A stretch of DNA of 33,098 bases, from IMG/VR virus record IMGVR_UViG_3300009151_000228, positions 1-33,098 of that record; one strand, 5' to 3'. The stretch is from a virus. A program made the translations under genes and the position numbers. The notes under the pieces were generated by a model that saw nothing but the letters and a program-made list of their open reading frames with translations, ran no database searches and had not been told where the DNA came from. Positions 2,306 to 30,476 of the stretch are shown here, in pieces; within the stretch, counting starts at the first letter, position 1; every line of letters starts with the position of its first letter.

Positions 2306-3807
2306 GAGTTGGTTACGCTGTTTGACTGAGAGTTTATCCGGCGCGCGGGTTCCCTATACTCGCGGTGCGCGACGGGGAATGCAAAGGTCACCGCCAGCGC
2401 GTCGGCGGCGTCCGGTGAGGCCAGTCCTCGACTTCGCATCTCTTTTTTCCCCTCAAGGAAAATCGTACCACTACTGTTGGGCTTCTTCATCGGGCCTGTC
2501 AGGTCGGCCTTTAGCTGCCGGTCCTCTGAAATACTGGCAGTCTTTAGCCAATCCTTCATTCCACCCCATATTTCAGCACGTTTGTTGCCCCACATAATGG
2601 AATTCTTGGCCTTCCAGCCAAAGTTTACCCCACGCACCTTATACCGCTGCTCGTTTAGCCTGTCAAGTATGCCATACCCGAGTCCACCCTCGTCAATTAC
2701 CGTCAAAGTAGGCTTGTATTCGTCAATTGCGTCGATCACCCGCCCCACAATGGTCATGGTGTCCTCGCCCGAGTAGCGTTTTATCGCCACCAAGTCGCGC
2801 CCTTGACGGACCACGATAACCGTCGAGTCAGCACCGCCTCGCGCTGGGTCAATTCCCATAACCACAGGTGCGGTGGAGTCCTTGTATCTTGGTCTTTTTG
2901 CTGCATCGTCCACCAGCATCGCCGAGATGAACTGATCCTCACCCGCGCTCGGGAATTCACCATACACCTCCACCTTGGCTTGCGGACTGTCCTCGCCGTA
3001 CTCCTCGATAATCTGCTCGTACACCGCCTTGTCGGTGTCCTCCACCGTTCTTGCGTCCACGGTGCGGGTGTTCCAGAACGCTCTCTTGGCGTGGAAGCAC
3101 TCAAAGAAGTACCCCTCATTGCGCCGGGGGTTGCTGAAAGCAAACCAGTATCTATTCGGTGTGTTCTCGGTGAAGAACCCGGCGCCCACCTCCCAGATCG
3201 GGTTGGGAATGCCGCTCGACTCATCAAAGATCAGCATCATGCCGTCCTGGTTGTGAACGCCCGCGTAGCTGTCGGGGTTCTCAGCCGACCACAGCTTGCC
3301 CTCGGCCGCCCAGTAACGTGTGCCTTTCTTCAGATCCCGCTCGACCAACTCGCGTAGCCACTGCGCCGGCACCAGCTTGGTTGCGCTGATCTCCCACCAG
3401 TGGTTGTTGATGACCATCGCCGACCACTTGGTCAACTCAGCCCATGTCACCGAGCGCAACTGGTTCTCCGAGTTCGCGCTGATGACAACGCTGCCCCCGA
3501 TGCGGGTGGTCAGCATCCACAAGACGAGCCAAGATACCAAGGCCGACTTACCAATCCCCCGACCGCTGCTGACCGCCTCTCTTAGCGTGGACATGTCCAC
3601 GCGGTTCTCTTTTATATGTTGCTTGATGTCGCGCAACACCTCGCGCTGCCATTTTCTCGGACCTTTGAAGTTTGCAAGCGGGGTGTTCTTCTGGCCCCAA
3701 GGAAAAGCCAGCAGCACAAACGCCTCCGGGTCGTCGCAGATCTGCGGCGACCACAACTCAACCATGAGCTTTTGTTCGTCCTCGGAGGTGTAGATGGGGA
3801 GTTGCAT
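2290..3807 (-). CDS. terL: terminase large subunit (packaging ATPase and nuclease)
   Basis: TerL is the DNA-packaging motor: it cuts concatemeric phage DNA and pumps it into the procapsid through the portal. The 505-residue product has an N-terminal ATPase with Walker A SGRGIGKS (81-88) and Walker B LIFDES (192-197). A C-terminal RNase H-like nuclease follows, with acidic residues at D320 (MGIDPARGGADST), D372 (VIDEGG) and the SPDAADAL motif near 464-471. The length is close to P22 gp2 (499 aa). The ATG at 3807 overlaps the TGA of the 106-aa gene upstream. All key motifs are present, so the enzyme should be active. The P22-like neighbours suggest headful packaging, which is an inference. Confidence 0.95.
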   Translation of the reverse strand: MQLPIYTSEDEQKLMVELWSPQICDDPEAFVLLAFPWGQKNTPLANFKGPRKWQREVLRDIKQHIKENRVDMSTLREAVSSGRGIGKSALVSWLVLWMLTTRIGGSVVISANSENQLRSVTWAELTKWSAMVINNHWWEISATKLVPAQWLRELVERDLKKGTRYWAAEGKLWSAENPDSYAGVHNQDGMMLIFDESSGIPNPIWEVGAGFFTENTPNRYWFAFSNPRRNEGYFFECFHAKRAFWNTRTVDARTVEDTDKAVYEQIIEEYGEDSPQAKVEVYGEFPSAGEDQFISAMLVDDAAKRPRYKDSTAPVVMGIDPARGGADSTVIVVRQGRDLVAIKRYSGEDTMTIVGRVIDAIDEYKPTLTVIDEGGLGYGILDRLNEQRYKVRGVNFGWKAKNSIMWGNKRAEIWGGMKDWLKTASISEDRQLKADLTGPMKKPNSSGTIFLEGKKEMRSRGLASPDAADALAVTFAFPVAHREYREPARRINSQSNSVTNSWMGS

Positions 3808-4127
3808 CAGTCTTTAGGCCGGTTGTAGTCGATCACATCCTGCTCCATGATCTTGTGTAGTCGCTCCTCAGCTTTTAGCGCCGCCTCTTCTGTCTTATAT
3901 GTAGGGAAGTCAATACCCGACTTGATGGCCGAACGCATAGCGTCTGGTACCGAACGCACATCGTTACCCCAGTACAGCGGCAGTATCATGTGCCCCTTGT
4001 CCGTCCCAACTACCGAACCCATGAACGTCGTCAGCGACCCGTCGGGGTGCTTTAGCGCGTTGCCGGTCAGCAGGTTTGAGCGGTGGTAATCAATAGCCGC
4101 CTGCTCTTGAGGTGTTAGGTTAGCCAT
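3807..4127 (-). CDS. 106-aa phage protein between the terminase genes
   Basis: A 106-residue hypothetical protein lying between the small and large terminase genes. The chosen start is the ATG at 4127, which sits inside the last codons of the small terminase gene; an upstream in-frame ATG would lengthen the overlap. The central part (HPDGSLTTFMGSVVGTDKG, then a hydrophobic PLYWG) and the end (FPTYKTEEAALKAEERLHKI) resemble a module seen in phage virion-associated proteins, where 'DGS...GTDKG...' is followed by an 'AYAERLH'-like helix. Function not known. Context suggests packaging or head morphogenesis. Confidence 0.7.
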   Translation of the reverse strand: MANLTPQEQAAIDYHRSNLLTGNALKHPDGSLTTFMGSVVGTDKGHMILPLYWGNDVRSVPDAMRSAIKSGIDFPTYKTEEAALKAEERLHKIMEQDVIDYNRPKD

Positions 4128-4503
4128 TGACAACGCGCTCCCGTGCCTGCTCGAGCGCGGCCAGCACACTGATCTTCTGGTAGACGTCCACGCTGATCTC
4201 CTGCTTGGCGGTCCAGCCGTGAACGTGTTGAAGTATCGCCAGACTCGCCTTGGCGTCGCCCTGCTCAGACGCCTCGTTTAACTTTCTAGCGGTGCGGATC
4301 TCATTATCCGACTTCCCCTTCTGCGCGGCCAGTTCCGCCAATGGGTCAAGTTGGCATAATTGTCGGTACTCATTGGGCAGCAGTCCTGCGGCCAACGCCA
4401 AACTATCACCCTTCAGTCCCATAGCAGCAGCACTATAGATCGCCTCCAAGCGCGACTCTGTAGCGTGTACCTGTCTAACTGTTAGCGGTAACGACTTGAA
4501 CAT
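4120..4503 (-). CDS. terS: probable terminase small subunit
   Basis: A 127-residue mostly helical protein upstream of the large terminase, where the DNA-recognition subunit normally lies. Residues 17-50 (ESRLEAIYSAAAMGLKGDSLALAAGLLPNEYRQL) read as a helix-turn-helix typical of small terminases. The later segment around AKASLAILQHVHGW resembles the 'AKWWLEHR/hgw' helix of the same class. It would bind the pac site and load TerL. It is the first gene of the leftward packaging transcript; the 677-base control region lies just upstream. I see no convincing -35/-10 pair on this strand. The assignment rests on position and the helical pattern. Confidence 0.75.
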   Translation of the reverse strand: MFKSLPLTVRQVHATESRLEAIYSAAAMGLKGDSLALAAGLLPNEYRQLCQLDPLAELAAQKGKSDNEIRTARKLNEASEQGDAKASLAILQHVHGWTAKQEISVDVYQKISVLAALEQARERVVNG

Positions 4504-4638
4504 GGTGCGGTTATAACACGAATGCCAATATGACAGTTATGACCAATTGGGCTGGGAAACATTTTTTAAAAAAAAATCGTTTACGAACGCTGCCCTGACC
4601 TGCACGGCGGGGCGCGGGCCCTCCCCCCCCGTCTAAAG

Positions 4639-4686
4639 TTAGCAGGCACTCACATACAGGTACAGGTTAGCAGGTGCTCACATACA
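4639..4686. repeat. two 20-bp direct repeats, 28-bp spacing
   Basis: TTAGCAGGYRCTCACATACA occurs at 4639-4658 and 4667-4686, with two adjacent mismatches (CA against TG), just upstream of the 8-bp tandem array. The copies face the same way and start 28 bp apart, close to two and a half helical turns. They lie on the small-terminase side of the control region and could be binding sites for a late activator or the packaging complex; that role is inferred. Confidence 0.75.
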
Positions 4687-4700
4687 TCTGCAAGCTCGGA

Positions 4701-4808
4701 GCCGGTCAGCCGGTCAGCCGGTCAGCCGGTCAGCCGGTCAGCCGGTCAGCCGGTCAGCCGGTCAGCCGGTCAGCCGGACGAGCCTTGAGCCGGTCAGCCG
4801 GACGAGCC
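4701..4808. repeat. 8-bp tandem repeat array (GCCGGTCA x9)
   Basis: Nine perfect copies of GCCGGTCA run from 4701 to 4772, followed by a variant GCCGGACG. The last 20 bp of this block (GCCGGTCAGCCGGACGAGCC, 4765-4784) is repeated at 4789-4808. The array is in no supported gene. Such arrays can be iterons, operator arrays or slippage-prone spacers. An 8-bp period puts successive copies on different helix faces, which is unlike ordinary phased operators. Confidence 0.9.
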
Positions 4809-4832: not shown

Positions 4833-5133
4833 TGACAATTTGCACCCAGGTCAATAGGTGGCTAAATTGTCGTCTATTGACCTGGGTAGATTGTCAGCGT
4901 TGTCAATTGTCATTTGGTTTTCGGTCGCTGAAATTCGCGGCGCGCGCGGCGGGCGCCGTTGGCGGCCGCCCCTATCTGGGAGATTTATAAAACCATTATC
5001 TTTTGTGACAATCAGGACAATAAAAGCCCATTCGCCGTCCGCCTACTATGGGACGGCGTTAGAAACTATTTGACGGCCGCTGACAATACGCGACAATCGT
5101 TTGACAATTTACTTGACATGGCCAAAATTGTCA
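4833..5133. promoter_or_regulatory. TGACAAT heptamer array, candidate origin or operator region
   Basis: Seven exact copies of TGACAAT in either orientation (4833, 4890, 4906, 5006, 5081, 5102, 5127) and four one-mismatch copies (4866, 4899, 5015, 5091) lie within 301 bases. For both strands of 300 bp, chance would give about 0.04 exact copies. The copies at 5081, 5091 and 5102 are 10-11 bp apart, so they face the same side of the helix. The last copy lies between the -35 and -10 boxes of the early promoter. This looks like a multi-site binding region for one protein: a repressor, a replication initiator or both. Confidence 0.8.
4844..4887. repeat. 14-bp inverted repeat within the heptamer array
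   Basis: ACCCAGGTCAATAG at 4844-4857 is the exact reverse complement of 4874-4887, with a 16-base spacer that holds one heptamer (ATTGTCG). Further heptamers in opposite orientation flank both arms, so the dyad extends imperfectly over about 4833-4896. It could extrude as a cruciform or bind a dimeric protein. There is no T-run after it, so it is not an intrinsic terminator. Confidence 0.85.
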
Positions 5134-5142
5134 GATTATAAT
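5113..5142 (+). promoter_or_regulatory. sigma70 promoter for the early rightward operon
   Basis: A consensus -35 box TTGACA (5113-5118) and consensus -10 box TATAAT (5137-5142) are separated by 18 bases. The first gene starts 39 bases further on. A TGACAAT-type heptamer (5127-5133, reverse orientation) sits in the spacer, so a protein bound there should compete with RNA polymerase. With both hexamers perfect, this is the best candidate for the promoter used first after infection. Confidence 0.85.
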
Positions 5143-5180
5143 GAGCGCGCAGCATCCACAATAACCTAGGAGAATCTAAA

Positions 5181-5390
5181 ATGCTGAAAGCCCGCTTCAA
5201 AATCGCAGAATCAACTATCGCCCGCGCAATTATCATTGTGACCGCTACATTGGACGACGCGCCCGCAATCGTGATCGAATCAGACGGCCGTTACACCACA
5301 ATTGTGGCGAGCGCGCAGATTGTGATGTTCGTAATCGGCGAGGTTGCCAATCTGGGCGAGTCTGGTCTGCAATTCGTCGCCGAAGTCTAA
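5181..5390 (+). CDS. hypothetical protein, first gene of early operon, 69 aa
   Basis: A 69-residue protein beginning MLKARFKIAESTIARAIIIV, with alternating hydrophobic beta-like stretches (IIIVTATL, IVIESDGRYTTIVAS, IVMFVIGEV) and no domain I recognise. It follows the strong promoter directly and has a clear ribosome-binding site (CCTAGGAGA, 5166-5174). As the first gene after infection it may act on the host, but nothing in the sequence shows how. A perfect hairpin follows its TAA-TAG stops. Confidence 0.7.
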   Translation: MLKARFKIAESTIARAIIIVTATLDDAPAIVIESDGRYTTIVASAQIVMFVIGEVANLGESGLQFVAEV

Positions 5391-5400
5391 TAGCATCATC

Positions 5401-5420
5401 CGGGCGCCATTCGGCGCCCG
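5401..5420 (+). other. 8-bp stem hairpin after first early gene
   Basis: CGGGCGCC and GGCGCCCG form a perfect 8-bp GC-rich stem with a 4-base loop (ATTC). No U-run follows, so it is more likely an attenuator or an mRNA-stabilising element than a full terminator. The AATAAACTGGAGTC leader of the next gene begins 9 bases later. Confidence 0.7.
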
Positions 5421-5445
5421 CTCATAAAATAAACTGGAGTCTAAT

Positions 5446-6108
5446 ATGCAGGTACACCTAACACTCAAAAGCGCAAACAGCAAAACAGGCCCGATTCCCG
5501 TATCAACTACAGAACGCGCATCCTGCCCCCCCGACTGCGCGATGCGTGACGCTTGTTACGCCGCGAGCGGCCCGCTCGCCTTGCATTGGGCCGCCGTGTC
5601 CAATGGAACCCGTGGCACGGATTGGGCGGCGTTTACTGCCATGATCGCGCAATTGCCGGCCGGCCAAGTCTGGCGCCATAACCAAGCTGGCGATCTTCCC
5701 GTCACGCCGGCCGGCACGGTCGATGCCGTTAAACTTGGCCAACTGGTACACGCCAACACCGGCCGGCACGGATTTACCTACAGCCATCACCGCGATGCCG
5801 AATCGATCAATTGGATCCGTCACGCCAATAACTGGGGTTTCACGGTCAACCTATCGGCCAATGATCTAGCAGATGCCGACACGCTTGCAGATCATCATGC
5901 CGGCCCGGTCGTCGTCGTGCTGCCCAGCACCCAAACAACTAACACCAAAACACCGGCCGGCCGTGCGGTCGTAGTCTGTCCTGCTACCCAGAGGGACGAT
6001 GTCACATGTGCCTCTTGCCAATTGTGCCAGCGCCAGCGGGACGTGATAGTGGGGTTCCCGGCGCATGGTACGCGCCGGCGCGTGATCGATATCAAGCTGG
6101 CAGCGTAG
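5446..6108 (+). CDS. cysteine-rich phage protein (DUF7227-like)
   Basis: A 220-residue protein of a phage family that I recall as DUF7227. The N-terminus has TTERASCPPDCAMRDACYA (two Cys then a third, about residues 27-37) followed by GPLALHW. The C-terminus has VCPATQRDDVTCASCQLC (four Cys), then VIVGFPAHG and a basic RRRVIDIKLA tail. The seven cysteines in two clusters suggest zinc or iron-sulfur binding. The two-cluster layout and the final IDIKLA faintly recall the Gp37/Gp68 (DUF5131) radical-SAM-like phage proteins, but no CxxxCxxC core is present, so no enzyme activity is claimed. It is preceded by TGGAG, 10 bases before the ATG. The gene is very GC-rich with repeated CCGGCCGG palindromes. 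Confidence 0.75.
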   Translation: MQVHLTLKSANSKTGPIPVSTTERASCPPDCAMRDACYAASGPLALHWAAVSNGTRGTDWAAFTAMIAQLPAGQVWRHNQAGDLPVTPAGTVDAVKLGQLVHANTGRHGFTYSHHRDAESINWIRHANNWGFTVNLSANDLADADTLADHHAGPVVVVLPSTQTTNTKTPAGRAVVVCPATQRDDVTCASCQLCQRQRDVIVGFPAHGTRRRVIDIKLAA

Positions 6109-13886: not shown

Positions 13887-14375
13887 ATGATTCATTACCA
13901 CGGACTACCAATCACACCGGCAACCGCCGCGTTGCCTGCCATAAACGCGGGACACGCGTTTGTCAGCTTTCGTCACCCAGACCAGTTGGGAGTCGCCGTG
14001 CAAGTATGCCAGTCCTTTGCGGTAGACAACGGGGCTTTTTCCGCGTGGAAAAGTGGCGCGCCTATTGTTGACTGGCGCCCGTACTATGTTTGGGCTGAAC
14101 AATGCCGCCGCGTACCCCATTGCGACTTTGCCGTCATACCAGACGTAATTGATGGCGACGAAACCGCCAACGATTGTTTGCTGGATGAATGGCCGTTACC
14201 GTCGTGGTTTGGTGCGCCGGTATGGCACATGCACGAATCATTAGATAGGTTAGAACGCCTGGCGTTGGTCTATCCGCGTGTTTGCTTGGGCAGCAGCGGC
14301 GCGTATGCAATAGTGGGGGGGGGATTTATGGTGGCGGCGCATGAACGCGGCTATGCAAGTTGTTTGCACCGCTGA
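13887..14375 (+). CDS. TGT/DpdA-like protein, N-terminal part (frameshifted)
   Basis: This frame gives 162 residues, but only about the first 145 match the expected protein; the end after GSSGAYAIVGG is out of frame. The full family, about 238 residues, runs MIHYHGLPITPATA, FAVDNGAFSAW (D47), FAVIPDVIDGD (79-91), PVWHMHE (111-117), LGSSGAY (134-140), then KLHGLRM and SADSTNIGRN, which lie in the next frame. The VDNGAF motif resembles the catalytic DSGGF of tRNA-guanine transglycosylases, and the fold looks like the same TIM barrel, so a DpdA-type enzyme that swaps DNA guanine for a 7-deazaguanine base is likely. It heads an operon with a QueF-like and a YhhQ-like gene. No clear ribosome-binding site is seen. 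Function is inferred from motifs and context. Confidence 0.7.
   Translation: MIHYHGLPITPATAALPAINAGHAFVSFRHPDQLGVAVQVCQSFAVDNGAFSAWKSGAPIVDWRPYYVWAEQCRRVPHCDFAVIPDVIDGDETANDCLLDEWPLPSWFGAPVWHMHESLDRLERLALVYPRVCLGSSGAYAIVGGGFMVAAHERGYASCLHR
14315..14323 (+). other. run of nine G, frameshift point in the TGT/DpdA-like gene
   Basis: Nine consecutive G fall where the protein similarity passes from one frame to another. With eight G the reading would continue IVGGDLWWRRMNAAM into the C-terminal half without a stop. Such a run is prone to polymerase slippage, replication slippage and sequencing error, so it may be an on/off switch, a slippage site or an artefact. Confidence 0.85.
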
Positions 14376-14604
14376 CGGCGCACCGTTGGTGAAGTTGCAT
14401 GGCTTGCGAATGCTTAACCCCAAAGTGTTTAGCCTGTTGCCTTTGGCTAGCGCGGATTCTACAAACATAGGCCGCAACATTGGCATTGATTCAAACTGGG
14501 CCAAAGGCCACTATTTACCTCCAACTAAAGAAGCAAGGGCGCAGGTAATGCGCTCACGCATTGAAGCGTACAACGCACCGGCTACCTATAAGTTTATGAC
14601 ATGA
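14341..14604 (+). CDS. TGT/DpdA-like protein, C-terminal part (frameshifted)
   Basis: An 87-residue frame that carries the C-terminal half of the TGT/DpdA-like protein: VKLHGLRMLNPKVFSLLPLA, then SADSTNIGRNIGIDS and PPTKEARAQVMRSRIEAY. It is in the +1 frame relative to the N-terminal part. The same frame is open upstream to 14314, through DLWWRR, so the ATG at 14341 is probably an internal methionine and not a true start. No ribosome-binding site precedes it. Its TGA overlaps the next gene's ATG (ATGA), as expected for a gene that is normally read to its end. It could also be made separately as a split subunit. Confidence 0.65.
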   Translation: MNAAMQVVCTADGAPLVKLHGLRMLNPKVFSLLPLASADSTNIGRNIGIDSNWAKGHYLPPTKEARAQVMRSRIEAYNAPATYKFMT

Positions 14605-14843
14605 ACACATACGAAACCAACTTTTTTTGCGTCTGTCCTATCAACAAAGTGCGGGTGTGTTACCAATTAAAGATTACCACTAAAGACATTATTGCCGTGG
14701 AAGACTTATTGGCGCACATTGCGCGTTGGTACGAGTCAGGTTTTCACGAATCCATAGCTGACCATTTGCATGAAACTTTTGGGGGCGACCAAACCTTAAT
14801 CGCCGACCACCATTCAGTCACCATAACCACTAGGAGAATGTGA
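14601..14843 (+). CDS. QueF-like T-fold protein, 80 aa
   Basis: An 80-residue protein resembling a minimal T-fold enzyme of the QueF group. FFCVCPINK (C12) matches the catalytic 'CP' cysteine of QueF, AVED (E34) the substrate-binding glutamate, and GFHESIADHL (H49, E50) the FHE motif. HHSVTITT (70-77) forms a final strand. The NADPH-binding E(S/L)K(S/A)xK motif of the nitrile reductase is absent, as in archaeal QueF-like amidinotransferases, which turn the preQ0 nitrile into the formamidine of archaeosine. A phage protein of this type could convert preQ0 in DNA to an archaeosine-like base. The start is coupled to the TGT/DpdA-like stop, and the transporter gene begins 2 bases after its own stop. 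Assignment from motif spacing; moderate confidence. Confidence 0.6.
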   Translation: MNTYETNFFCVCPINKVRVCYQLKITTKDIIAVEDLLAHIARWYESGFHESIADHLHETFGGDQTLIADHHSVTITTRRM

Positions 14844-14844
14844 A

Positions 14845-15321
14845 ATGACGTTTATTACCGTTGTTGCGTATGCCGTAGCCATGCTGGTTGCCAATCTTAC
14901 CGTAGCCGCGTTTGGGCCTGCCGTGGCGCCGCTTAATGCGTTTTTTTTAATTGGTTTGGATTTAACTTTGCGGGATTGGTTGCACACTCGGTTGCGTGTG
15001 CGGCAGATGGCCGCGCTTATAGCTTTGACGGGGGTGTTGACCTACCTTTTAAACCCTGCTACGGGGTTGATCGCCATAGCAAGTATGTGTGCGTTTAGCG
15101 CCGCCGCGCTTGCGGATTGGGTAGCGTTTGCCAAACTGCGTGGCTCATGGATGTTCCGCGCTAATGGATCTAACGTAGTTGGCGCGGCAGTAGATTCAAT
15201 ACTATTTCCTACGATAGCTTTTGGTGTGCTTATGCCCGAGATTATCGCCGCGCAGTTTGCCGCAAAATTAATTGGTGGCGCCGTATGGGCATACGCAATA
15301 GGGCGATATGTTAGAACGTGA
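14845..15321 (+). CDS. YhhQ/VUT-family queuosine precursor transporter
   Basis: A 158-residue integral membrane protein with five to six hydrophobic segments. Hallmarks are VANLTVAAFGPAVAPLNAFF (15-34), DLTLRDWLH (39-47) and SNVVGAAVDSILFPTIAFG (109-127). These are typical of the YhhQ/VUT family, which takes up preQ0, preQ1 or queuine across the inner membrane. Family members are usually 200 residues or more, so this is a short form, like a subclass that starts directly at 'ANLTVA.FGP'. A CACTAGGAGAA site precedes the ATG at 14845. It follows the QueF-like gene and overlaps the VRR-NUC gene by 14 bases. In a phage the obvious use is to raise 7-deazaguanine supply in the infected cell for DNA modification. 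Confidence 0.85.
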   Translation: MTFITVVAYAVAMLVANLTVAAFGPAVAPLNAFFLIGLDLTLRDWLHTRLRVRQMAALIALTGVLTYLLNPATGLIAIASMCAFSAAALADWVAFAKLRGSWMFRANGSNVVGAAVDSILFPTIAFGVLMPEIIAAQFAAKLIGGAVWAYAIGRYVRT

Positions 15322-15589
15322 CATCGAACGCTACCTTGTACGCCGCGTTGCAGAGCGTGGGGGTCGTGCATATAAATGGGTGTCACCGGGCCATGTCGGG
15401 GTGGCCGACCGCATTGTCATGCTGCCCGGTGGCCGCGTGTGGGTGGTGGAACTCAAGACTGTAAAGGGACGCTTGTCACCGCTACAGAAGGTGTTCGCCG
15501 CCGACATGGCGCGCATGGGGATAAATTACATCGTGATTAGATCAAAGGAGGAAGTAGATCAATGGTTCTTAGACCTTACCAAGAGTTAG
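15308..15589 (+). CDS. VRR-NUC domain nuclease
   Basis: A 93-residue stand-alone VRR-NUC nuclease. It has E3 in the first helix, GVADRIVMLPGG with D34, the E48-x-K50 pair in VVELKTVKGRLSP and Q60 in LQKVF: the full PD-(D/E)XK site. Small phage VRR-NUC proteins act on branched DNA such as Holliday junctions and often lie beside an SNF2-type helicase, as here, where the helicase gene overlaps the last 28 bases. The start overlaps the transporter by 14 bases. Likely role: resolving replication or recombination intermediates before packaging. Confidence 0.9.
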   Translation: MLERDIERYLVRRVAERGGRAYKWVSPGHVGVADRIVMLPGGRVWVVELKTVKGRLSPLQKVFAADMARMGINYIVIRSKEEVDQWFLDLTKS

Positions 15590-16845
15590 CTGCGGATTTC
15601 CTGTACGAGTCAGACCGGGCGATGATACTTGCGCCTGTCGGTGCTGGCAAGACCGCCATCACCCTGACCGCCATACGCGACATCGTGCGTGATGGCCATG
15701 CCAAACGGTTCTTGGTCCTCGCCCCCAAGCGCGTCTGTCTGGAGGTCTGGCCGCAGGAGGCGAGGATCTGGGCGCCGGGGCTGACCATCGCCGTTGCTGT
15801 CGGCACCCCGCGCCAGCGAGAGGCCGCCTTTGTCATGGGCGCGCACATTACCGTCACCAACTACGACAACCTGCAATCGCTGCCCGAGTTGGACTTTGAC
15901 GCTATCGTGTTCGACGAGCTAACCCGGCTAAAGAACGCCTCCGGCAAACGATTCAAAGCGTTGGCGAAAGTCATCGATTCCATCCGCATCCGCTGGGGGC
16001 TGACCGGCAGCTTCACCTCCAACGGACTGGAGGACACTTTCGGCCAGTGCAAGATCATCGACCAGACGTTGCTCGGGCGTAGCAAAGGCGCGTTCCTGCA
16101 ACAGTACTTTCATTGCATCAACCGGGACTTCGGGGATTGGGAGCCGGCCAAGGGGTCACTGGAACAGGTGATGCAGCGCATTAAACCGGCCACCTTCGTC
16201 TTGGACGCGGGGGAGTACAAGGACAAGCTGCCGCAGCTACACACGGTGGAGGTGCCCTGCGACATGGACATGACCGAGTACAAGGCCATGAAGAAGGACT
16301 TTGTGGTGCAATTCCCCTCCGACCAGGCGGTTGCCACCAACGCATCGGTGGTCACGCAGAAGCTGCAACAGATGGCATCGGGGTTTGCCTACGCCGAGCG
16401 CGGCGCGGTGTGGTTCTCCGCGCACAAGTTTGACGCGCTGGATGACCTATTGACCGAGAACCAACACGCCAACACCATCATCGCCTACCAGTACAAGGAG
16501 GAGCTAGCCGAGTTGCGCCGCCGCTATCCCCACGCGTTGACGCTGGATGACGCGGGGGCCATTGAGCATTGGAACGCGGGGCGCGTCCCGTTGCTGCTGG
16601 TGCATCCCAAGTCTGCCGGGCATGGGCTGAACCTGCAATTCGGTGGCTGCCACATGGTGTTTTTGTCCCTGCCGTGGTCGTTGGAACTGTATGAACAGAC
16701 AGTGGGGCGGCTGCACCGTAGCGGCCAGAAGCATGACGTGTGGTGCTACGCCATCCAGACGCGAGGCACCATCGACGAGAAGATCCTGCGGGCGCTGCGC
16801 GACAAGCGGTCGCTATCAGATGTTGCGATGGAGGAATTGAAATGA
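15562..16845 (+). CDS. SNF2/DEAD-type superfamily 2 helicase
   Basis: A 427-residue superfamily 2 ATPase. It opens LRPYQELAADFL (Q-like motif), Walker A PVGAGKT (25-31), motif Ia VLAPKRVCLEVWPQE, motif II DELTRLKN (118-125, DELT in place of DEAD/DEGH), motif III LTGSF (147-151) and motif VI QTVGRLHRSGQ (379-389). The HRSGQ ending marks it as SNF2-like. Phage members pair with VRR-NUC and family A polymerase genes and probably remodel or unwind DNA during replication. AAGGAGG lies just before the ATG at 15562, inside the upstream gene. All core motifs are present. Confidence 0.92.
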   Translation: MVLRPYQELAADFLYESDRAMILAPVGAGKTAITLTAIRDIVRDGHAKRFLVLAPKRVCLEVWPQEARIWAPGLTIAVAVGTPRQREAAFVMGAHITVTNYDNLQSLPELDFDAIVFDELTRLKNASGKRFKALAKVIDSIRIRWGLTGSFTSNGLEDTFGQCKIIDQTLLGRSKGAFLQQYFHCINRDFGDWEPAKGSLEQVMQRIKPATFVLDAGEYKDKLPQLHTVEVPCDMDMTEYKAMKKDFVVQFPSDQAVATNASVVTQKLQQMASGFAYAERGAVWFSAHKFDALDDLLTENQHANTIIAYQYKEELAELRRRYPHALTLDDAGAIEHWNAGRVPLLLVHPKSAGHGLNLQFGGCHMVFLSLPWSLELYEQTVGRLHRSGQKHDVWCYAIQTRGTIDEKILRALRDKRSLSDVAMEELK

Positions 16846-21975: not shown

Positions 21976-24900
21976 TTATGGCCTTTCAGGTGCAAGTTGG
22001 TTAATCATCAATGCGCCCGGTGCAACTGTACCTGAGAACCGAGATGGTTTTTTGACCCCCGCCGGTGCGGCAGAGGGTCTGGCGCGGGCTATCATTGCGG
22101 CAGCGGATGGCGAATTGGCAAGCTCCACACCGATCTGCGCGGCCAGTTTATCGTCCGTTAAACCTTTCATCCGGCGCATAACCGCGTTCGCCAGCGCAGC
22201 TTCGCGTGACAACGCCATCACGGGCGGGCCGGCGGCAGTAGTGGCTAACCCACCCGCGCCACCACCCGCAGCGTTGCCGGTAGTCGCCAACTTTTCAAAT
22301 TCTGCGCCTTGTTCAATCTCGCGCTGTATCTTTTGAACTATAGCTCGGACTTCAGGCAGACCTTTAGTCAGGTCATCCATTCGTTTAGCGGAGTCCAGCA
22401 TGTTTTTAGGAAACGCTTTTTGGGTGTCCTCAATCAAGGTCTTTACCCGTGCGCCTTCTTTTGCTTCCGCAAATATCTTCGCCGCCGTGGTGGGGTTGGC
22501 CGCCCGCAACGCGGTCATAATAGTGCGCTCGTTGTTCACCAGATGCTTGAGCGGATCTATAGTGTTTAGCGCGTCCTGCATAACCCCCCGCGCCAACGCC
22601 GCCTTGGCCGGCTGGTCCATCCGCCGCAAGGCTTGATTCATAACCGCATCCGACGCGATAACAGACTTACGCAATTCGCCGGTCGTACGGAACGACAATC
22701 CTTTAGTAGCTTCGTCTAATGCAATATTTTCCGCCGCAATTTTAACTGTTTCGGCGGCTTTTGCTTTTGCTACCGCCGCTGTTTCCGGCGCAAATGTTTC
22801 CGCCACTTTACTCGGCAACGCCGCAAGTTCGCCCGTTTTTGTTTTTGCTGCAGCGCCAAGGGCGTCTAATTTGTCACCAATGCCCATGCCGGCGTTGTCT
22901 AGAACGTCCAACACCTTGCGGTGGGCAAACATAAATGCATCGTGCGCGGCAACGTCCAGCACACCTTTGATGCCCACTTTGGAAAAGTACAATCCTTCGA
23001 TACCGTCTTTAAGTGCTTGCACCGCCGCAGGGTTGTCACCGAGCATGTTTACAAATTGCTTGGCTTCGCTTTCGCCTTTAAAAAATGAACTGGTAACATC
23101 TTCTGGTTTGATGCGGTCTTCGTTAAGCCCCGTGCGGCGGAATAGATTTTCTTGTACACCTGTTTTAAATTTAGGCACGTAATTGGTTTTGTACTGATTC
23201 ACCGCCGCTGCGTACGCGGTCTTTGCTTCCGGCGTAAGCGTGGCTGAGTCTTTCACCATCTTGGTGATTACATCTTGCAACTGAGCTAAATTACGCAGCT
23301 TCGGGTCTACGTTGGGGGATATTTTGGCGTCACGAACCGCTGCGTTTATAGCCGACCGAATAGCGTCTAAGTCTTCAAGCGTTGCCATTGCGGGCGGCGC
23401 GGCTTGCGGTGCCTTGGATACCAAAGGTGCAAGGAAACCACCACCACCAGTTTCCGGTGTCGCTGGTGCCTCATTCTTAAGTTTCAACAACCGGCTGATA
23501 ATAGGATGCGCTGTTTTTGGGTCAAACTGGGATAGCGACTTTCCCAGTATTTCTTCTGCTTTAGCTACCAAAGGTTCGGCGCTGACCTCCGCGTTACCGG
23601 CCAATTTAAATGCGTCATCATACAACCGTTTGTTTTCAGCTTTGGCCGCTTTCCGTTCTGTTTTGGCTTCGCCCGATATGATGTCGCCGAGTGCCGGCTG
23701 ATTAGGGTCCGCAACACCATGCGCTTGCTGCGCGGTGGTATTTTTGGTGATTAAGCCAGAAGTTGCTGCGGCTTCTTTTTCAGCTAACGTAGCTTCTGCT
23801 TTGGCTAACTCCTCAGCACGGGCGGTCTGCTGCGCCACTAAAGTATTCTGCTCCTGCGACATTGCGGTATTGACCGCACGGCGGGGCAGATTAGGTGAGC
23901 CAAGGTTAGGCGGCATATTGGACTGTTGCAGCGCGTTGACGCTTTCGGTAGCCCCTGCTAATTGATTGACTTGGCTTTCTTGCAACGCATTTGTTCTTGC
24001 CTTGTATATGTCCGCCACCGCTGTGTTGGCAAACTGTGATGACTTTGCAAGTGCCGCCAGACCGCTGCTTTTTAGCGCAACCGCAACCTGCTCAATGGGC
24101 ATTCCTTGCTCTAGCATCGCTATCGCCTGATCCATCTTGGCAATATCCGGTGTGCCTTTGATCGGATCAGAAGAGAAGGCGGACATGACGGCGCGGTTCT
24201 TTATGGCCTCCGCACCGCCGGGTAGCACCGATTCAACAAGGTTCCGCCCAGCGGTGTAACCCGCTTTTGCGGTTGCTTTGGCTACGTCTACTGCCGGTTT
24301 TACATAAGGCACTTGCAACGCCATGTTGCCCGCCACCCGCGCCGTTGGCATAACAGCGTTTAACGGGTTGGTGTATTGCCCTGCGGTGCTTAGGACTTTC
24401 CCTGCGGTGGACAACGCGCCTGACGCGCTTGCAGCGGCCTCCATGCCCGGTACACCGGACATCGCGCCGGCCACAATGGGGCCACGCGAAGCCGTTGCCA
24501 GCTTAGTGGCAGCCGCGCCGCCGCCGGTGAATAGGGTCGAGAGATCCGCCGCCGCGCCTACAGGATCGTTGTACAGCGTGTCTTTTATCCGGTCCAGCGA
24601 ACCGTACTTTGCTTTGTACACGCCGCCCACCGCATTGGCAGCGGCAACAGCTCGTTGCCCCGCTGCAAGGGCTTCCGGTGATTCGCTCTTGTTGACAAAA
24701 TCCACCAACGCTTGTGGCAACACATTCTGCAACGCGCCGGCGCCGATATCCATAATATTACCTATGGTGTTGTTGCCTTTTGTGTCAACAACATTAACGA
24801 CGGCGTTTAATATTCCTTTACCCAAACGAACCGCAGAGGAAGGTATGTTGGACAGAAAGCCACCCACGCTGCGACCAGTGGGTATCCCCGACGGGGCGGC

Positions 24901-25017
24901 GGATAAATGTGGGTTTTGCCGTATGACTTCATTTTGCACTTGTTCTTGCGATGCCCCTGCCGGCCCGTCAATTTCGTAAGTTTTACCATCCGGCGCCGAA
25001 ATGCTGTAGGTGGTCAT
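21976..25017 (-). CDS. large internal virion / ejection protein (gp16-like), 1013 aa
   Basis: A 1013-residue protein, the third of three in a row in the place of P22 gp7, gp20 and gp16, the proteins ejected into the cell with the DNA. The start MTTYSISAPDGKTYEIDGPA with GASQEQVQNEVIRQ is a short N-terminal module common in phage internal proteins. The rest is Ala-rich and helical with long charged coils (about residues 390-420 and 840-930) and a hydrophobic patch near 50-80. The ATG at 25017 overlaps the upstream stop; an in-frame ATG seven codons earlier is less likely. No lytic transglycosylase motif was found by eye. Role from gene order and composition. Confidence 0.75.
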   Translation of the reverse strand: MTTYSISAPDGKTYEIDGPAGASQEQVQNEVIRQNPHLSAAPSGIPTGRSVGGFLSNIPSSAVRLGKGILNAVVNVVDTKGNNTIGNIMDIGAGALQNVLPQALVDFVNKSESPEALAAGQRAVAAANAVGGVYKAKYGSLDRIKDTLYNDPVGAAADLSTLFTGGGAAATKLATASRGPIVAGAMSGVPGMEAAASASGALSTAGKVLSTAGQYTNPLNAVMPTARVAGNMALQVPYVKPAVDVAKATAKAGYTAGRNLVESVLPGGAEAIKNRAVMSAFSSDPIKGTPDIAKMDQAIAMLEQGMPIEQVAVALKSSGLAALAKSSQFANTAVADIYKARTNALQESQVNQLAGATESVNALQQSNMPPNLGSPNLPRRAVNTAMSQEQNTLVAQQTARAEELAKAEATLAEKEAAATSGLITKNTTAQQAHGVADPNQPALGDIISGEAKTERKAAKAENKRLYDDAFKLAGNAEVSAEPLVAKAEEILGKSLSQFDPKTAHPIISRLLKLKNEAPATPETGGGGFLAPLVSKAPQAAPPAMATLEDLDAIRSAINAAVRDAKISPNVDPKLRNLAQLQDVITKMVKDSATLTPEAKTAYAAAVNQYKTNYVPKFKTGVQENLFRRTGLNEDRIKPEDVTSSFFKGESEAKQFVNMLGDNPAAVQALKDGIEGLYFSKVGIKGVLDVAAHDAFMFAHRKVLDVLDNAGMGIGDKLDALGAAAKTKTGELAALPSKVAETFAPETAAVAKAKAAETVKIAAENIALDEATKGLSFRTTGELRKSVIASDAVMNQALRRMDQPAKAALARGVMQDALNTIDPLKHLVNNERTIMTALRAANPTTAAKIFAEAKEGARVKTLIEDTQKAFPKNMLDSAKRMDDLTKGLPEVRAIVQKIQREIEQGAEFEKLATTGNAAGGGAGGLATTAAGPPVMALSREAALANAVMRRMKGLTDDKLAAQIGVELANSPSAAAMIARARPSAAPAGVKKPSRFSGTVAPGALMINQLAPERP

Positions 25018-26675
25018 TTGGTGGTCGCCTTGCCCCAACCAGATGACGGTGTGGCTGCGCTGGGGACATTTGTCGCCGATGCAGCGGCAGCGCGGGTGAA
25101 TAAACTACTAACAGCTTTATTCGACCCACCACCGGATTCATATTGGTCTTGCAAACCCTTAACTTGCCCCGCAATCAGTTTTTGCCATTTATTGACTACA
25201 CCTGCAAGTTGTTCAGGCGAGTTGGCTTCGCCGACTTCTTTTCGCATTTCTGTGCGGTCGCCCAATGCCCCAGCGGTTCCCAAAATTGCTTTAGTTAATT
25301 CATCCGCTACCACGTTTCTAACCGCCCCAAAATCAGTTGGTGCGGGTTTGCCCGTCCACCTTGCAATTTGGTTGCCCATTGCGTTGGTAAATTGAAGACT
25401 ATCATTACCCAAATCTTTAGCGGTGTCTTTAAATACATCCAGATGGTCTTGCACAACGTTAAGGGACCGTAGAGTATTGCCTAAACGCCCCGAAGTAAAC
25501 GCAGTCTCAATCCCTTGCTTAGTTTTGAATTGCGTTGCGTCATAGGTAGGATCTACCATATTGACCAATTGCATAAGACTGTCCCCACGCGTCGTACTAC
25601 GTCCGGGTGGGGCAGCGCGGTGGTCTGTGATGGCCGCTACTTGTGAAGCTACGTTGTACGGTAGCGCAGCCAACATGGCATCGCCGGTTAACCTTTGCGC
25701 AATCGCGTCTTTTATTGACAACTTAGCGCCGCCAAGGGTTGGTTCCGTAGCCGCCGCTGGGGCGGGTGCGGCCGGAACAACACCTAAATTGTGTTGCCTT
25801 GACGCGGCCCCACTACTGCCCATGCCTACTGGAAAATGATCTTGTATCCCAGTTAAATTAAACGGGTCCGCACCAACGGCGCGAATGCCTAACCCAGCTT
25901 GGCTTATGTCTGCGTTACGGTCGGCTACATTTGCGGTGCGCGTTTGGGCCATAGTCATGCCGGGGGCCAAATTATTAAACCCAGTGGGTGTTTGCCCAAA
26001 CCCTTGCGAGAATGGTGCGAAGTTTATAAAATCTACGCCGCCGGTGGGTGTGTTCACTTGACGTATGTCCGGTGTCAACGCCTTAAGCCTATCCGCCGCA
26101 GTGCCTGCCATTAAGGCCAATATTGGCGCCCGTTGTTCCATAGGTACGGCTAAAAGCGCGGTTTGTGTGCGGGTGGCCTCGGCCATACTCAAACCTTGGT
26201 TTTGCACCGCGTCGCTTATGGCCGCACGAATATCCTCGTCAGACGCCCCGTTGGGATTAGTAGACAGCCGGGACAAATTTTCAAACGCATGTTGCGCTCG
26301 ACTCACCGCCATTTTATCGGTAAGGTTTTGTGTTTGCGCGGTCCTATATGCCCTGTCACCGGGTTGTGCAAGTATGTCTCCGCGCAGTTTATCTTGTGTT
26401 AATCGTTCGCTTTGCATTTTTGACGCTACATCTGGCTTACCAGCCCGCTGGTAAGCGCGATATATCTCTTCGGGTGTAGTTGCAACCCGTAGATCGCCGA
26501 GCAACTGATTCGTCAGTTCGTCCTCGCGTTTGGCTTTCGCCAACGTGTACTGAGAGAGAGCGTTCTGGTTCTCTTGCGCCCTAGCCGCCGCCGCCTGATC
26601 CTGCCCACGCACAAAGGCGTTGCCGATGCTCTCCGACCCCGGTGGGGTCAGCAATCCGAAGTTGAGTTCAGCCAT
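25014..26675 (-). CDS. internal virion / ejection protein (gp20-like), 553 aa
   Basis: A 553-residue mainly helical protein. It begins MAELNFGLLTPPGSESIGNA, with a charged Gln/Ala-rich coil in the first 150 residues. The C-terminal third (LVNMVDPTYDATQFKTKQG; LRSLNVVQDHLDVFKDTAKD; KPAPTDFGAVRNVVADELTK) is a conserved module of phage internal and ejection proteins. A Pro/Ala-rich linker lies near residue 300. It sits between the gp7-like and gp16-like genes, as gp20 does in P22. It probably helps form the conduit across the cell envelope. Assignment by order and pattern. Confidence 0.75.
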   Translation of the reverse strand: MAELNFGLLTPPGSESIGNAFVRGQDQAAAARAQENQNALSQYTLAKAKREDELTNQLLGDLRVATTPEEIYRAYQRAGKPDVASKMQSERLTQDKLRGDILAQPGDRAYRTAQTQNLTDKMAVSRAQHAFENLSRLSTNPNGASDEDIRAAISDAVQNQGLSMAEATRTQTALLAVPMEQRAPILALMAGTAADRLKALTPDIRQVNTPTGGVDFINFAPFSQGFGQTPTGFNNLAPGMTMAQTRTANVADRNADISQAGLGIRAVGADPFNLTGIQDHFPVGMGSSGAASRQHNLGVVPAAPAPAAATEPTLGGAKLSIKDAIAQRLTGDAMLAALPYNVASQVAAITDHRAAPPGRSTTRGDSLMQLVNMVDPTYDATQFKTKQGIETAFTSGRLGNTLRSLNVVQDHLDVFKDTAKDLGNDSLQFTNAMGNQIARWTGKPAPTDFGAVRNVVADELTKAILGTAGALGDRTEMRKEVGEANSPEQLAGVVNKWQKLIAGQVKGLQDQYESGGGSNKAVSSLFTRAAAASATNVPSAATPSSGWGKATTK

Positions 26676-26677
26676 GA

Positions 26678-27451
26678 TTAATAATCTCCCCGCGCTACTG
26701 CGGCGCTTAACTCCGCCCCCGTAGGACTATAAGTGTATCCGCCACCATCTGGGGACGCCCCGCGCCCATACCCGCCATAGTACCGCCCCAGCATGTTGGC
26801 CGCACCGCCGTAGGCTGAGTTACGCAGCCCCGCTCCGGCCATCGCCGCGTTGCCTGTGTTGGCCGCGCTGCCCATCAAAACGTTGCCAATATTACCCGCT
26901 GTGTTTGACCCCAGCGTGGCAAGATTACCCGCCGCAGTCTGGCCGGTTCCGGCAACTCCTGACAGGCGGTTAAAATCGGTGTTCTGCGCGTTGGTGTTGG
27001 CGTTAAAGCCGGTCACATAGCGATTGAAAGCATTCTGGTATTCCTGCGAACCCATGCCTTGCCCAAACTCAGTTGCAGCTTTGATATTCGCCCCCGACAG
27101 CCCCCGACCTCTGGCGGCCATTGAAGCGTTCACCCCTCGCATTCCTTGGTCAAACCGAAATCCGTAGCCGGGGTCTGTGTTCTGGTTGTAGTCAAAGTTA
27201 AACTGAGGCGCGGCGCTAAACCGACCCCCAGGTTGCAATCCGGCGCCCAGTTGGTTGACCGCACCCGTGCCGGCCGCAAGAAACGGTTGTTGGTTGGCTT
27301 GCGCGATGTCGAACTGACGGCGCTGCTCGGCGATAGACGCATCCGAGGCTTGCCCCGACGCTCGGGCGGCGGTGTCAGCGGCGTTAGAAGCAGAGTCCGC
27401 GCTAAACAACGAACTTCCTATGATTGCAGCGGGTAGCATCCATGCGGACAT
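26678..27451 (-). CDS. DNA-transfer / injection protein (gp7-like), 257 aa
   Basis: A 257-residue Gly/Ala/Asn-rich protein. A hydrophobic start (MSAWMLPAAIIGSSLF) leads into DSASNAADTAARASGQASDA and a Gln-rich helix, then FNFDYNQNTDPGYGFRFDQG and EYQNAFNRYVTGFNANTNAQ. This is the pattern of phage DNA-transfer proteins like P22 gp7, which leave the virion with the DNA. It starts the three-gene ejection block. The glycine/tyrosine-rich end is low in complexity. Fairly sure. Confidence 0.8.
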   Translation of the reverse strand: MSAWMLPAAIIGSSLFSADSASNAADTAARASGQASDASIAEQRRQFDIAQANQQPFLAAGTGAVNQLGAGLQPGGRFSAAPQFNFDYNQNTDPGYGFRFDQGMRGVNASMAARGRGLSGANIKAATEFGQGMGSQEYQNAFNRYVTGFNANTNAQNTDFNRLSGVAGTGQTAAGNLATLGSNTAGNIGNVLMGSAANTGNAAMAGAGLRNSAYGGAANMLGRYYGGYGRGASPDGGGYTYSPTGAELSAAVARGDY

Positions 27452-27452
27452 A

Positions 27453-27797
27453 TTAATGTTCCTTAGTTAGATTTTGCGCGATTAACCTAGCCTGCGCCAT
27501 ATCGTCGGGTAAAGTTACTTCCGCATCCACTTCATCCGCATCCGTGCAATCCGTAGCATGAATGCAATACCATACCACTTCCGTAAGTGTCTTTACGCCG
27601 TGGTGCGCGTTTGCGTTAATAGTCAAGCAAGCTGGCGCGTGGACAACTTTGCGCGTTCCATCAACGATAAGTTCAATAGATCCACTAGCCAGTACGGACA
27701 AATGGTCAAACTTATGCCTGTGGTGCAATAGCACATAATCAGCAGGCATCCGCAATTCCTTGGCATATACACCCCCGCCAAAATGATGCAGAATCAC
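27453..27797 (-). CDS. cupin-domain protein, 114 aa
   Basis: A single-domain cupin of 114 residues. LLHHRHKFDHLSVLASGSIE gives three histidines (H26, H28, H32) and the first cupin motif, and INANAHHGVKTLTEVVWYCI gives the second (H65/H66, with H80 close behind). The metal site therefore seems intact. It lies within the virion operon between a beta-rich small protein (4-base overlap) and the ejection genes. Similar cupins occur there in other phages with no proven role; binding or changing a sugar is the usual guess for cupins near receptor proteins. Confidence 0.8.
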   Translation of the reverse strand: MILHHFGGGVYAKELRMPADYVLLHHRHKFDHLSVLASGSIELIVDGTRKVVHAPACLTINANAHHGVKTLTEVVWYCIHATDCTDADEVDAEVTLPDDMAQARLIAQNLTKEH

Positions 27798-28129
27798 GTT
27801 ACCTCCCGCCCAGAAGCGCGGATAGTGATGGCCGACGCAGTTCCGGCTATCGTTGAGATAAATCCCCCATTATCAAGCACTTGGCCTACTATTTCGGGGA
27901 AAGTATACACTTCGGAGGCGGCCAACGAGCGGGCCTTGGTAATCAGGTTGCTGTTGCCCGGTGTGTCACCCAAGGTGACCAAATTGATGCTTAAAGTTGC
28001 CGCGCCGCCGCTGTAGTTGGTGGCCGTGAACTTGTCAATAATTGTGGTCACATTGGATGCGGCGTACTGCTGAGTTTGACTCGACTCGGCAATCTTGGCG
28101 GGGATCAAAACTTTAACGGTAACGGTCAT
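27794..28129 (-). CDS. beta-rich small virion protein, 111 aa
   Basis: A 111-residue protein, Thr/Ser/Ala-rich and beta-strand-like throughout ([20 protein letters not shown], then ATLSINLVTLG and ITIRASGREVT). Small proteins of this style in phage structural operons are often decoration or fibre-associated proteins; no family name is certain. The ATG and stop are coupled to both neighbours. Confidence 0.65.
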   Translation of the reverse strand: MTVTVKVLIPAKIAESSQTQQYAASNVTTIIDKFTATNYSGGAATLSINLVTLGDTPGNSNLITKARSLAASEVYTFPEIVGQVLDNGGFISTIAGTASAITIRASGREVT

Positions 28130-28293
28130 GTTTTTTTCTCGTTTTTTAATGCTAACGTCAATTCATCCTGATAAACGCTTTCCTCAATGAATTCAGGGGC
28201 AAGATTTTGTTCGGCAAGCATTGAAATAATTGTTTCTTGGCTCATGCCTTCGTAACCAATCAAAGCACCGTTGACCCTAGCAAATAATTTCAT
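28126..28293 (-). CDS. hypothetical protein, 55 aa
   Basis: A 55-residue acidic protein, [20 protein letters not shown] and on, ending ALKNEKKT. The ATG at 28293 overlaps the stop of the long fibre gene (ATGA) and is preferred over an in-frame ATG nine codons earlier that lies within the fibre gene. It may be a fibre chaperone or adaptor, judging only by its place directly after the fibre gene. Function unknown. Confidence 0.55.
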
Positions 28294-30476
28294 CGCACTC
28301 TCCTTGCGCTGATCCGACACTTATAAACAGGTGCGGCCCCTAAATTGTAGTCAGCATAAACTTTAAGATAATAAGTTGTGGTTGAAGCTATGCTTGCTCT
28401 CCACGCTGGGATGGATTGATTAAACCCCGGCATACTTAAAATTGACCGCGCAAACGCGGTATCACAAGTGTTGTCTCCTCCTAATAAATTGGTTGTATTG
28501 TTGCCCGATGCGGTGCCAATCCAAGATATTGCTTCAGACCAGTTTGCGGTTCCTCCGTTGGTGCAAAAAATTGTGTACGAAATGTCCCAATCTCCAGCAG
28601 TCAACGATATGGATGTTGCGTCACCAAAAACCCCTGTTGCGGGGTAGTTTGCGTAAGTTGAAATATAGGATGAAACATACTCACCAACGCTTCCAGCATT
28701 TGCATTGTTGTTTGTAGTTGTGCCGACAATTCCCGCTGTGGAAGAAGGCGTAATTGTTGACGAAGCGGTAATGGTAGTGAATGCGCCTGTTGTCGCTGTT
28801 GTTGCTCCTACTGTGCCGTTGATGTTTAACGAAGCTGTCCCGCTTAACGTCCCGCCTAGCGTCAAACTGCCAGAAGTCGTAACCGTCCCTGTAAGCGTCA
28901 ATCCGTTGACCGTTCCTGCGCCGCTAACGCTTGTGACCGTTCCGCCCCCAGCAGGGGTTGACCATGTACCATCCCCACGCCAGAAGGTTGAGGAACTAGC
29001 GGAAGTGCCGGAATTCAGATTCGTGACTGGCAGGTTGCCGGTGACCTGCGTCACTAGACTGACCCCGCTCAAGGTGCCGCCCAGCGTCAAACTCCCCGAG
29101 CTTGTGACCGTGCCGGTCAGGGTAATGCCGTTCACAGACCCGGTGCTGCCCACACTGGTGACCGTGCCGCTGCCTTTGCCGTTAAAGGTCGTCCAGTCCG
29201 TTGATGTCAGATAACCGCTTACAGACGTTGTGGCAGCAGGCATTGAGATTGCTGGCGTTGCGCCGCCAGAGGACACCACTGGCGAGGTTCCCGTTACGCT
29301 GGTGACAGTCCCCTGGGGGTTGGCAGCCGTTGTGATGCCGGTCACCCGCCCGTAGGTGTCAATGGTGACGACGGGGATAAGCGACACAGATCCGGTCGTC
29401 CCCGGTGTTGCAACCCCCGAGGCCAGGTCAATGACCGGCGTTGCGCCGCCGGTGCTGGTAATCCGGCCTGCGGTGCCGGAAACACTGGTCACCGTGCCGC
29501 CCGAGCCAGTTGCGGACAGAGTGCCGGTAGCAAAGGACACGCCGGTGCCGATGGTGACATTGGAGAACCCACCTGCACCGTTGCCGTACAGGATTGAGGT
29601 GCCGCTGGTCGCCGGCGCGTAATCGGTGCCGGAGGCAGCCGCGCTGATTGCGGTGCCGTTGCCCTTTAGCACCCCGGTGATGGTCGTGGAAAGCGTCAAA
29701 GCAGGAGTTGCCCCACCTGAACTGGTGCCTGCTAAACCATTGGCGCTTGCAACCGAAACAGCGGTGACGGTTCCTGTCGTTGGAGTTGACCAAGTTGGCG
29801 TTCCAGCCGTTGCGCTGGTTAAAACTTGTCCGGTTGTACCCGCAGCCGTGTACGCAAGCGCGGTTCCTGTTCCATACACCACCGCCCCCGCTGTCGGCGT
29901 TGCGGTGCTATTTGTGCCGCCGTTGGCAATCGGCAAGGTGCCAGAAACGTGCGTTGTAAGGCCGATCTTTCCCCAGCTTGGAGCAGTCGTAACGCCGCCA
30001 GAAATAAGCGCGTTGCCTGTTGCGATATCTGACAGCTTTGCAAATGTCGTTGCGCCACTTGCATAGATAATGTCACCAACGGCGTATGCAGTTAAACCAG
30101 TGCCGCCGTAACTTGCCCCAAGCGTTCCTGTCACATCGTTGACCAGACTCACCGCGCTAAAGGTTGGGTTACCCGCCGCGTTGCCGTGCAGCACCGTGGT
30201 CGTGGTGCCTTGGTTGGTCATGCTGATATTAGGCGCAGTGCCGCCGCTGGATACTATTGGCGCGGTGGCCGTTACCGTGGTAATAGCGTTGCTCAACGCG
30301 CTTATGTCTGCGGGTGGTGGCCCCAGTTGCAATTCATCCAACGTAGTAGCGTTGGACCCGCTGCCCGTCAAAACAAACAGATTCTGAAAAAACCGATACC
30401 ATTCCCGCGACATGAGGCCGGTACGTTCGTCAATGAATGACACCCTTGGCGCGGGAATCTTGGTAATGTTAGCCAT
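28290..30476 (-). CDS. repetitive tail fibre protein, 728 aa
   Basis: A 728-residue fibre. The N-terminus ([20 protein letters not shown] then [17 protein letters not shown]) is a conserved podovirus attachment segment. The long middle is built of Gly/Thr/Ser-rich repeats such as [16 protein letters not shown] and LTLGGTLSG, which should form a thin beta-structured shaft. The last 110 residues ([16 protein letters not shown] onward, ending CRISARRVR) look like a globular tip. It follows the gp10-like gene by an 8-base overlap, where P22 has the tail needle, so it may be the needle or a fibre. Two 110-bp blocks near the shaft end are near-duplicates. Confidence 0.8.
28840..29173. repeat. duplicated 110-bp block in the fibre shaft
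   Basis: Bases about 28840-28948 and 29064-29173 encode nearly the same stretch: GTVTSV, then [20 protein letters not shown] against [20 protein letters not shown], then TLSG. The peptides match better than the DNA. The separation suggests an old duplication kept by selection on the protein. Such blocks can recombine and change fibre length. Confidence 0.7.

Follow-up and report, generated by a model that had tools for sequence, protein, structure and literature searches.

Known phage systems for 7-deazaguanines in DNA

Phages with dpdA as their only gene of the 7-deazaguanine pathway are already known, as are phages that encode QueF or QueF-L. The virion DNA of phage MED16 contains dADG, and dpdA is the sole pathway gene in its genome (PMC8306585); in CAjan, a Seuratvirus like slur01, the presence of dPreQ0 requires dpdA, and the DNA of Streptococcus phage Dp-1 carries dPreQ1 (PMC6884629). 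Phages with YhhQ homologs have also been mentioned, without a pattern being described (PMC6884629). Outside phages, QueF-L takes as its substrate preQ0 already in tRNA, uses free ammonia, and proceeds through a Cys thioimide (PMC5485725). The literature leaves open how dpdA-only phages complete the base (dADG, dG+). Additional phage 7-deazaguanines are the subject of a 2023 NAR paper, which reportedly names DpdL, DpdM, and DpdN.

We analyzed one IMG/VR virus record in full (33,098 bases; hereafter, the window) and favor, with some reserve, the view that three of its genes form a salvage-type 7-deazaguanine DNA modification operon, in which a YhhQ-family protein would supply the base, a DpdA would exchange it into DNA, and a small T-fold protein would tailor its nitrile. 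As far as the literature consulted shows, the new elements are the constant link of dpdA to a minimal T-fold family, the fold assignment of that family, the cassette's size and modular makeup, and a break of the dpdA frame at a G tract.

A modular cassette of small genes

In the window, the head genes (portal, head closure Hc3) are P22-like, and genes for a polymerase, a primase, an exonuclease, RusA, and a helicase belong to a replication module. The cassette consists of three plus-strand genes with a 3' end at 15321: a DpdA/TGT-like gene with its ATG at 13887, a gene for an 80-aa QueF-like T-fold protein (14601 to 14843), and a gene for a 158-aa YhhQ/Vut_1 (DUF165) membrane protein, a putative preQ0/preQ1 importer (14845 to 15321). 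The first two share 4 bases (14601 to 14604) and the last two are separated by 1 base (14844), in agreement with the same-strand arrangement described in an earlier note on this DNA. A gene for a VRR-NUC nuclease (15308 to 15589, plus strand; Pfam E = 3e-4, below the cut-off; phrog_93 E = 1.5e-27) overlaps the end of the transporter gene and commonly adjoins the cassette, which does not need it. Downstream lies a plus-strand gene for an SNF2-type helicase (15562 to 16845) of the replication module.

Elsewhere in the window, an A9 run (4568 to 4576) and a C8 run (4623 to 4630), both apparently noncoding, lie between leftward terminase genes and rightward genes, and the region from 5446 to 6108 strongly matches DUF7227 (Pfam E = 6e-83), a family of unknown function. 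Three large leftward ORFs (1020, 553, and 728 aa; 21976 to 30476) flank a DNA ejection gene; they match nothing in PHROG, and nothing in Pfam above the cut-off, and are probably internal virion or ejection proteins.

Searches with the 80-aa protein family alone, with dpdA no part of the query, retrieved 111 loci, and dpdA adjoins the 80-aa gene, on either side of it, in every one of them (84/84 loci of viruses or phages, counting the window, and 27/27 genome loci). This pairing is far beyond chance and bears out the proposal of a conserved operon. Among 160 loci retrieved with DpdA or YhhQ queries, dpdA and yhhQ directly adjoin each other in 114 and follow the order dpdA-queF-like-yhhQ in 30 (144/160 in total, which is not an unbiased estimate, half of the loci having been retrieved through YhhQ); 15 others have dpdA without yhhQ in the available stretch, and 1 has yhhQ alone. 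On a tree of 187 DpdAs (FastTree, with many weak branches), about 17 changes of state are counted for the T-fold gene and about 8 for YhhQ. Given this repeated gain and loss, the cassette is modular and its middle gene, the QueF-like one, is optional, the approximately 17 gains and losses being what is expected of an optional tailoring step. Five Pseudomonas-type loci (L034, L047, L059, L062, and L083) have a window-type DpdA allele beside a Pseudomonas-type T-fold gene, which suggests that dpdA alone has been exchanged. Cassettes of this kind occur in hundreds of phages, environmental ones and those of Pseudomonas. With two or three small genes, the cassette is easily expressed and assayed; the phage contigs that carry it number well over a hundred, and it also occurs in Pseudomonas prophages.

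The dpdA frame is broken at a nine-G tract

Gene 1 had previously been read as a single ORF, a reading that missed a broken frame. The frame that opens at 13887 ends at 14375, and the conserved C-terminal half (KLHGLRML...SADSTN) lies in another plus-strand frame, at about 14323 to 14604 (listed ORF, 14341 to 14604). The two halves join at a run of nine Gs (14315 to 14323), where relatives are in frame. The N-terminal part (13887 to 14322), with the DNGAFS and PDVIDG motifs that are invariant in relatives, aligns, up to about 14321, with positions 11 to 161 of the PHROG 887 profile (E = 8.5e-43), and the C-terminal part, with HGLRML and SADSTN, aligns with positions 173 to 256 (E = 1.5e-13). 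Because phrog_887 matches both halves in succession, we read dpdA, on this profile evidence, as one gene split by a frame break and not as two genes. As assembled, it is out of frame at the G9 tract and yields no intact DpdA; this genome copy would therefore lack the modification, unless the tract is in reality shorter or slippage restores the frame.

In relatives (L010, L017, L023, and L085), the frame runs uninterrupted across the point of the break, and the window-type set has 155 full-length dpdA genes and a single broken one, that of the window; a search by exact DNA pattern across the window's G tract found no sibling contig. Compared with L085 and L010, both halves of the window's gene give pS values of 0.78 to 0.85 and pN values of 0.14 to 0.16, i.e., silent sites near saturation with few replacement changes, indicative of strong purifying selection. 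With both halves under such selection, the break is recent, reversible, or an error.

Homopolymers are the usual site of indel errors, and together with the selection on both halves and the 155 full-length genes, this speaks for a reading that we put at slightly less than even odds, namely, that the ninth G is an assembly or sequencing indel, in which case dpdA of the phage would be intact and the cassette fully working. Natural variation at such tracts is nevertheless possible, as in a second lineage, at another G tract, the gene is intact with G8 in L017 to L019 and broken with G9 in L020 (98.3% identical to L017, with further differences besides the tract).

We think it rather unlikely that the G9 is real and dpdA freshly inactivated, e.g., by selection from modification-dependent restriction, with the other two genes as leftovers. 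GrwAB attacks 7-deazaguanine DNA, and phages that escape this restriction have changes in dpdA (PMC12137116), so a real break would link the modification to a known gain from dpdA loss; broken copies without a G tract are also found in L051 and L111. Against this, few copies in the family are broken, and the window's genes 2 and 3 are intact. Both L051 (5243 to 5959; dpdA with a frame break and an in-frame stop) and L111 of Pseudomonas cichorii (4939 to 5888; dpdA with a frame break, T-fold gene broken) are degenerate cassettes.

A minority reading, which we hold to be improbable, is that hypermodification is phase variable in this phage group, slippage of the dpdA G tract setting it ON with G8 and OFF with G9 and giving mixed modified and unmodified virions. 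GrwAB restriction and the dpdA escapers provide a biological motive for such a switch, which would hedge between ordinary restriction enzymes, under which ON is favored, and modification-dependent systems like GrwAB, under which OFF is favored.

Of 212 distinct dpdA genes, only 4 have a G/C run of at least 7 (G9 in the window and L020, both broken; G8 in L017 and L016, both intact), a count that rules out a family-wide contingency tract. Since breaks also occur elsewhere without one, the tract is a hot spot, of mutation or of error, that is confined to two lineages and does not characterize the DpdA family. A programmed -1 frameshift was likewise ruled out: a +1 or -2 shift is required, and relatives lack such a site at this position.

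The 80-aa protein is a minimal T-fold domain

The product of gene 2 belongs to phrog_37496, an unannotated PHROG family of unknown function. A scan with the single sequence found nothing; a four-sequence alignment was required, which recovered 134 relatives in viral contigs (the best 80 of the 134 being kept), and a wider alignment recovered 27 in bacterial genomes (Pseudomonas, Janthinobacterium, Massilia, Roseateles, and a Nitrosomonadales MAG). The AlphaFold (AF2) model has a beta-beta-alpha-alpha-beta-beta topology (pLDDT 96.7), and its best PDB matches in Foldseek are the archaeosine synthase QueF-Like (5k0p, TM up to 0.82; 5jyx, E = 3.7e-4), followed by GTP cyclohydrolase I. The fold thus supports the earlier note's description of this product as a QueF-like T-fold protein. 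The protein gave no match to Pfam PF14489, hhalign of the family against QueF was not significant (probability 1.7%), and the T-fold profile found no relative among PDB sequences. There being no profile link to QueF, the QueF-like assignment derives from the fold and a few residues, and we do not claim membership in QueF or QueF-L proper, two of whose defining sequence features are absent.

Within the family, Cys12, Pro13, and Glu50 are present in 67/67 sequences, Glu34 in 99%, and His49 in 97%, besides His70 and Arg79, which are invariant and the family's own. It thus has a Cys followed by Pro, as at the QueF nucleophile (Cys55 Bs, Cys21 Pc), and a His-Glu pair at the second helix; judging by their order and context rather than by coordinates, we infer that Cys12-Pro13, Glu34, and His49-Glu50 correspond to the Cys-Pro, Glu, and Phe-His-Glu motifs of QueF. 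The general acid/base Asp of QueF and QueF-L (Cys+7 in QueF) is absent at the equivalent spacing in the 67 sequences, which mostly have Ile or Val there; at Cys+3, they mostly have D, N, or S/A-D (N in the window). The NADPH motif (E-S/L-K-S/A-h-K) is likewise absent from the 67 sequences, in which E34 is followed by D/H/E/Q and then L/I, with no Lys at +2. A QueF-type reduction is therefore not supported, the closest fold being that of the amidinotransferase QueF-L.

We propose the following route. YhhQ would increase the cell's supply of preQ0/preQ1, as its family suggests. DpdA, a short TGT homolog, would then swap guanine in phage DNA for preQ0, with Asp47 and Asp190 (L010 numbering) as the catalytic pair. 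Finally, Cys12 of the T-fold protein, expected by analogy with QueF-L to act on preQ0 already in DNA, would attack the DNA-borne nitrile to form a thioimide, which with ammonia would yield a product that is probably 2'-deoxyarchaeosine; this chemistry and product are predicted from the observed fold and cysteine. The modified DNA would be expected, judging from PMC6884629, to resist G-sensitive restriction enzymes. We found no mass spectrometry in the literature on any phage with the T-fold gene, whose cultured carriers include Epa33, RHph_X2_30, and Mae-JY30.

A different role for the T-fold protein, as a nitrile hydratase (dADG), a reductase (dPreQ1), a CDG decarboxylase, or a noncatalytic partner of DpdA, is possible, and we give it appreciable, though not leading, weight. 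The missing equivalent of the catalytic Asp and the family's own His70 and Arg79 speak for such a role, as do the facts that no enzyme for dADG formation is known and that phage Dp-1, with an HHpred-predicted QueF-L, proved to make dPreQ1 (PMC6884629). Its variants meet separate objections: the E-S/L-K NADPH motif of a reductase is absent, MED16 carries dADG without a T-fold gene, and the Cys-Pro and His-Glu of a catalytic protein are kept in 67 sequences. The T-fold protein was ruled out as the dADG enzyme of MED16, which has no homolog of it, and this mildly favors a T-fold product other than dADG. Under the proposed route, phrog_37496 becomes a testable candidate for the post-DpdA step, a minimal 80-aa T-fold enzyme always beside dpdA.

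DpdA, the transporter, and the source of preQ0

Relatives of the window-type DpdA recovered with tblastn include those of Salmonella SPN3UB, SEN1, and SW9 and Acinetobacter AB3P2. The family profile matches MED16 DpdA (E = 6e-65; L010 DpdA is 38.5% identical to it), and comparison with the slur01 DpdA profile gave a probability of 97% (E = 9e-11), with DNGAFS aligned to DSGAFS and SADSTN to SCDSSS, i.e., at both catalytic Asp motifs. D47, D190, and H171 (L010 numbering) are invariant in 29 DpdA relatives, both Asp residues also being found across the two frames of the window's gene; the His would be equivalent, via the slur01 alignment, to His196 of 9g. For L010 DpdA, AlphaFold gave a weak TIM barrel (pLDDT 75.6), too weak to identify a TGT; its top Foldseek matches are generic TIM barrels, with no TGT on top. 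The DpdA profile found no relative among PDB sequences. The MED16 and slur01 matches sustain the earlier assignment of gene 1 to the TGT/DpdA family and show, at the sequence level, its homology to experimentally tested DpdAs; guanine exchange is its predicted activity. That it acts on tRNA and not on DNA, as the database label of phrog_887 (queuine tRNA-ribosyltransferase) would have it, is very unlikely, given that the nearest tested homologs (MED16, Seuratvirus) modify DNA, that full-length TGT is already present in 6/6 tested genomes carrying relatives, and that the short DpdA stops before the C-terminal zinc region of TGT.

The gene 3 product scores above the cut-off of Pfam Vut_1 (PF02592; 46.7 bits, cut-off 27.2) and below that of the stricter NCBIfam equivalog TIGR00697 (25.7 bits, E = 8.5e-6; cut-off 50.95). 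The family identification of the earlier note therefore stands, and a role in preQ0/preQ1 uptake is putative.

Searches for the QueC and QueD families gave no match in the record, a virus contig that may be incomplete, consistent with the earlier statement that the window has no preQ0 synthesis gene. The conclusion drawn from this, an obligatory import route, was overstated: QueC is present in 6/6 tested genomes carrying relatives (among them the MAG with a YhhQ-bearing copy) and QueF in 14/14, so such hosts would normally make preQ0, with YhhQ as an added supply and not the sole source; MED16 DNA, moreover, is modified without a YhhQ match (PMC8306585).

Comparison with known systems

The DpdAs of the MED16/SEN1/SW9 type (cluster DpdA/TGT_1, PMC8306585) are of the same family as that of the window and, like it, phage borne without preQ0 synthesis genes; MED16 differs in having an intact dpdA and, by profile search, neither the T-fold gene nor YhhQ. 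Acinetobacter phage AB3P2 has a DpdA 62% identical to that of L010 and a YhhQ-family gene overlapping the end of dpdA, but this and other DpdA-YhhQ pairs lack the T-fold gene in between. QueF-Like of Pyrobaculum calidifontis (5jyx/5k0p) shares with the 80-aa protein the T-fold, one conserved Cys, and the absence of the NADPH motif; it is longer (109 aa), shows no sequence-level match, differs in the spacing of the catalytic Asp, and acts on tRNA, whereas DNA is the predicted substrate of the window's protein.

Finally, the Dp-1 cluster (QueF, FolE, QueD, QueE, QueC, QueT, and TGT/DpdA) also sets a TGT/DpdA beside a queuosine precursor transporter (QueT) and a QueF-family T-fold protein. Within 3306 to 4728 of the Dp-1 locus (L118), the QueT gene lies immediately upstream of the TGT/DpdA gene. 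Unlike the window, Dp-1 has its own preQ0 synthesis, a true QueF with the NADPH motif, and a transporter of an unrelated family; the pairing of transporter and transglycosylase in Dp-1 thus arose with another transporter family.
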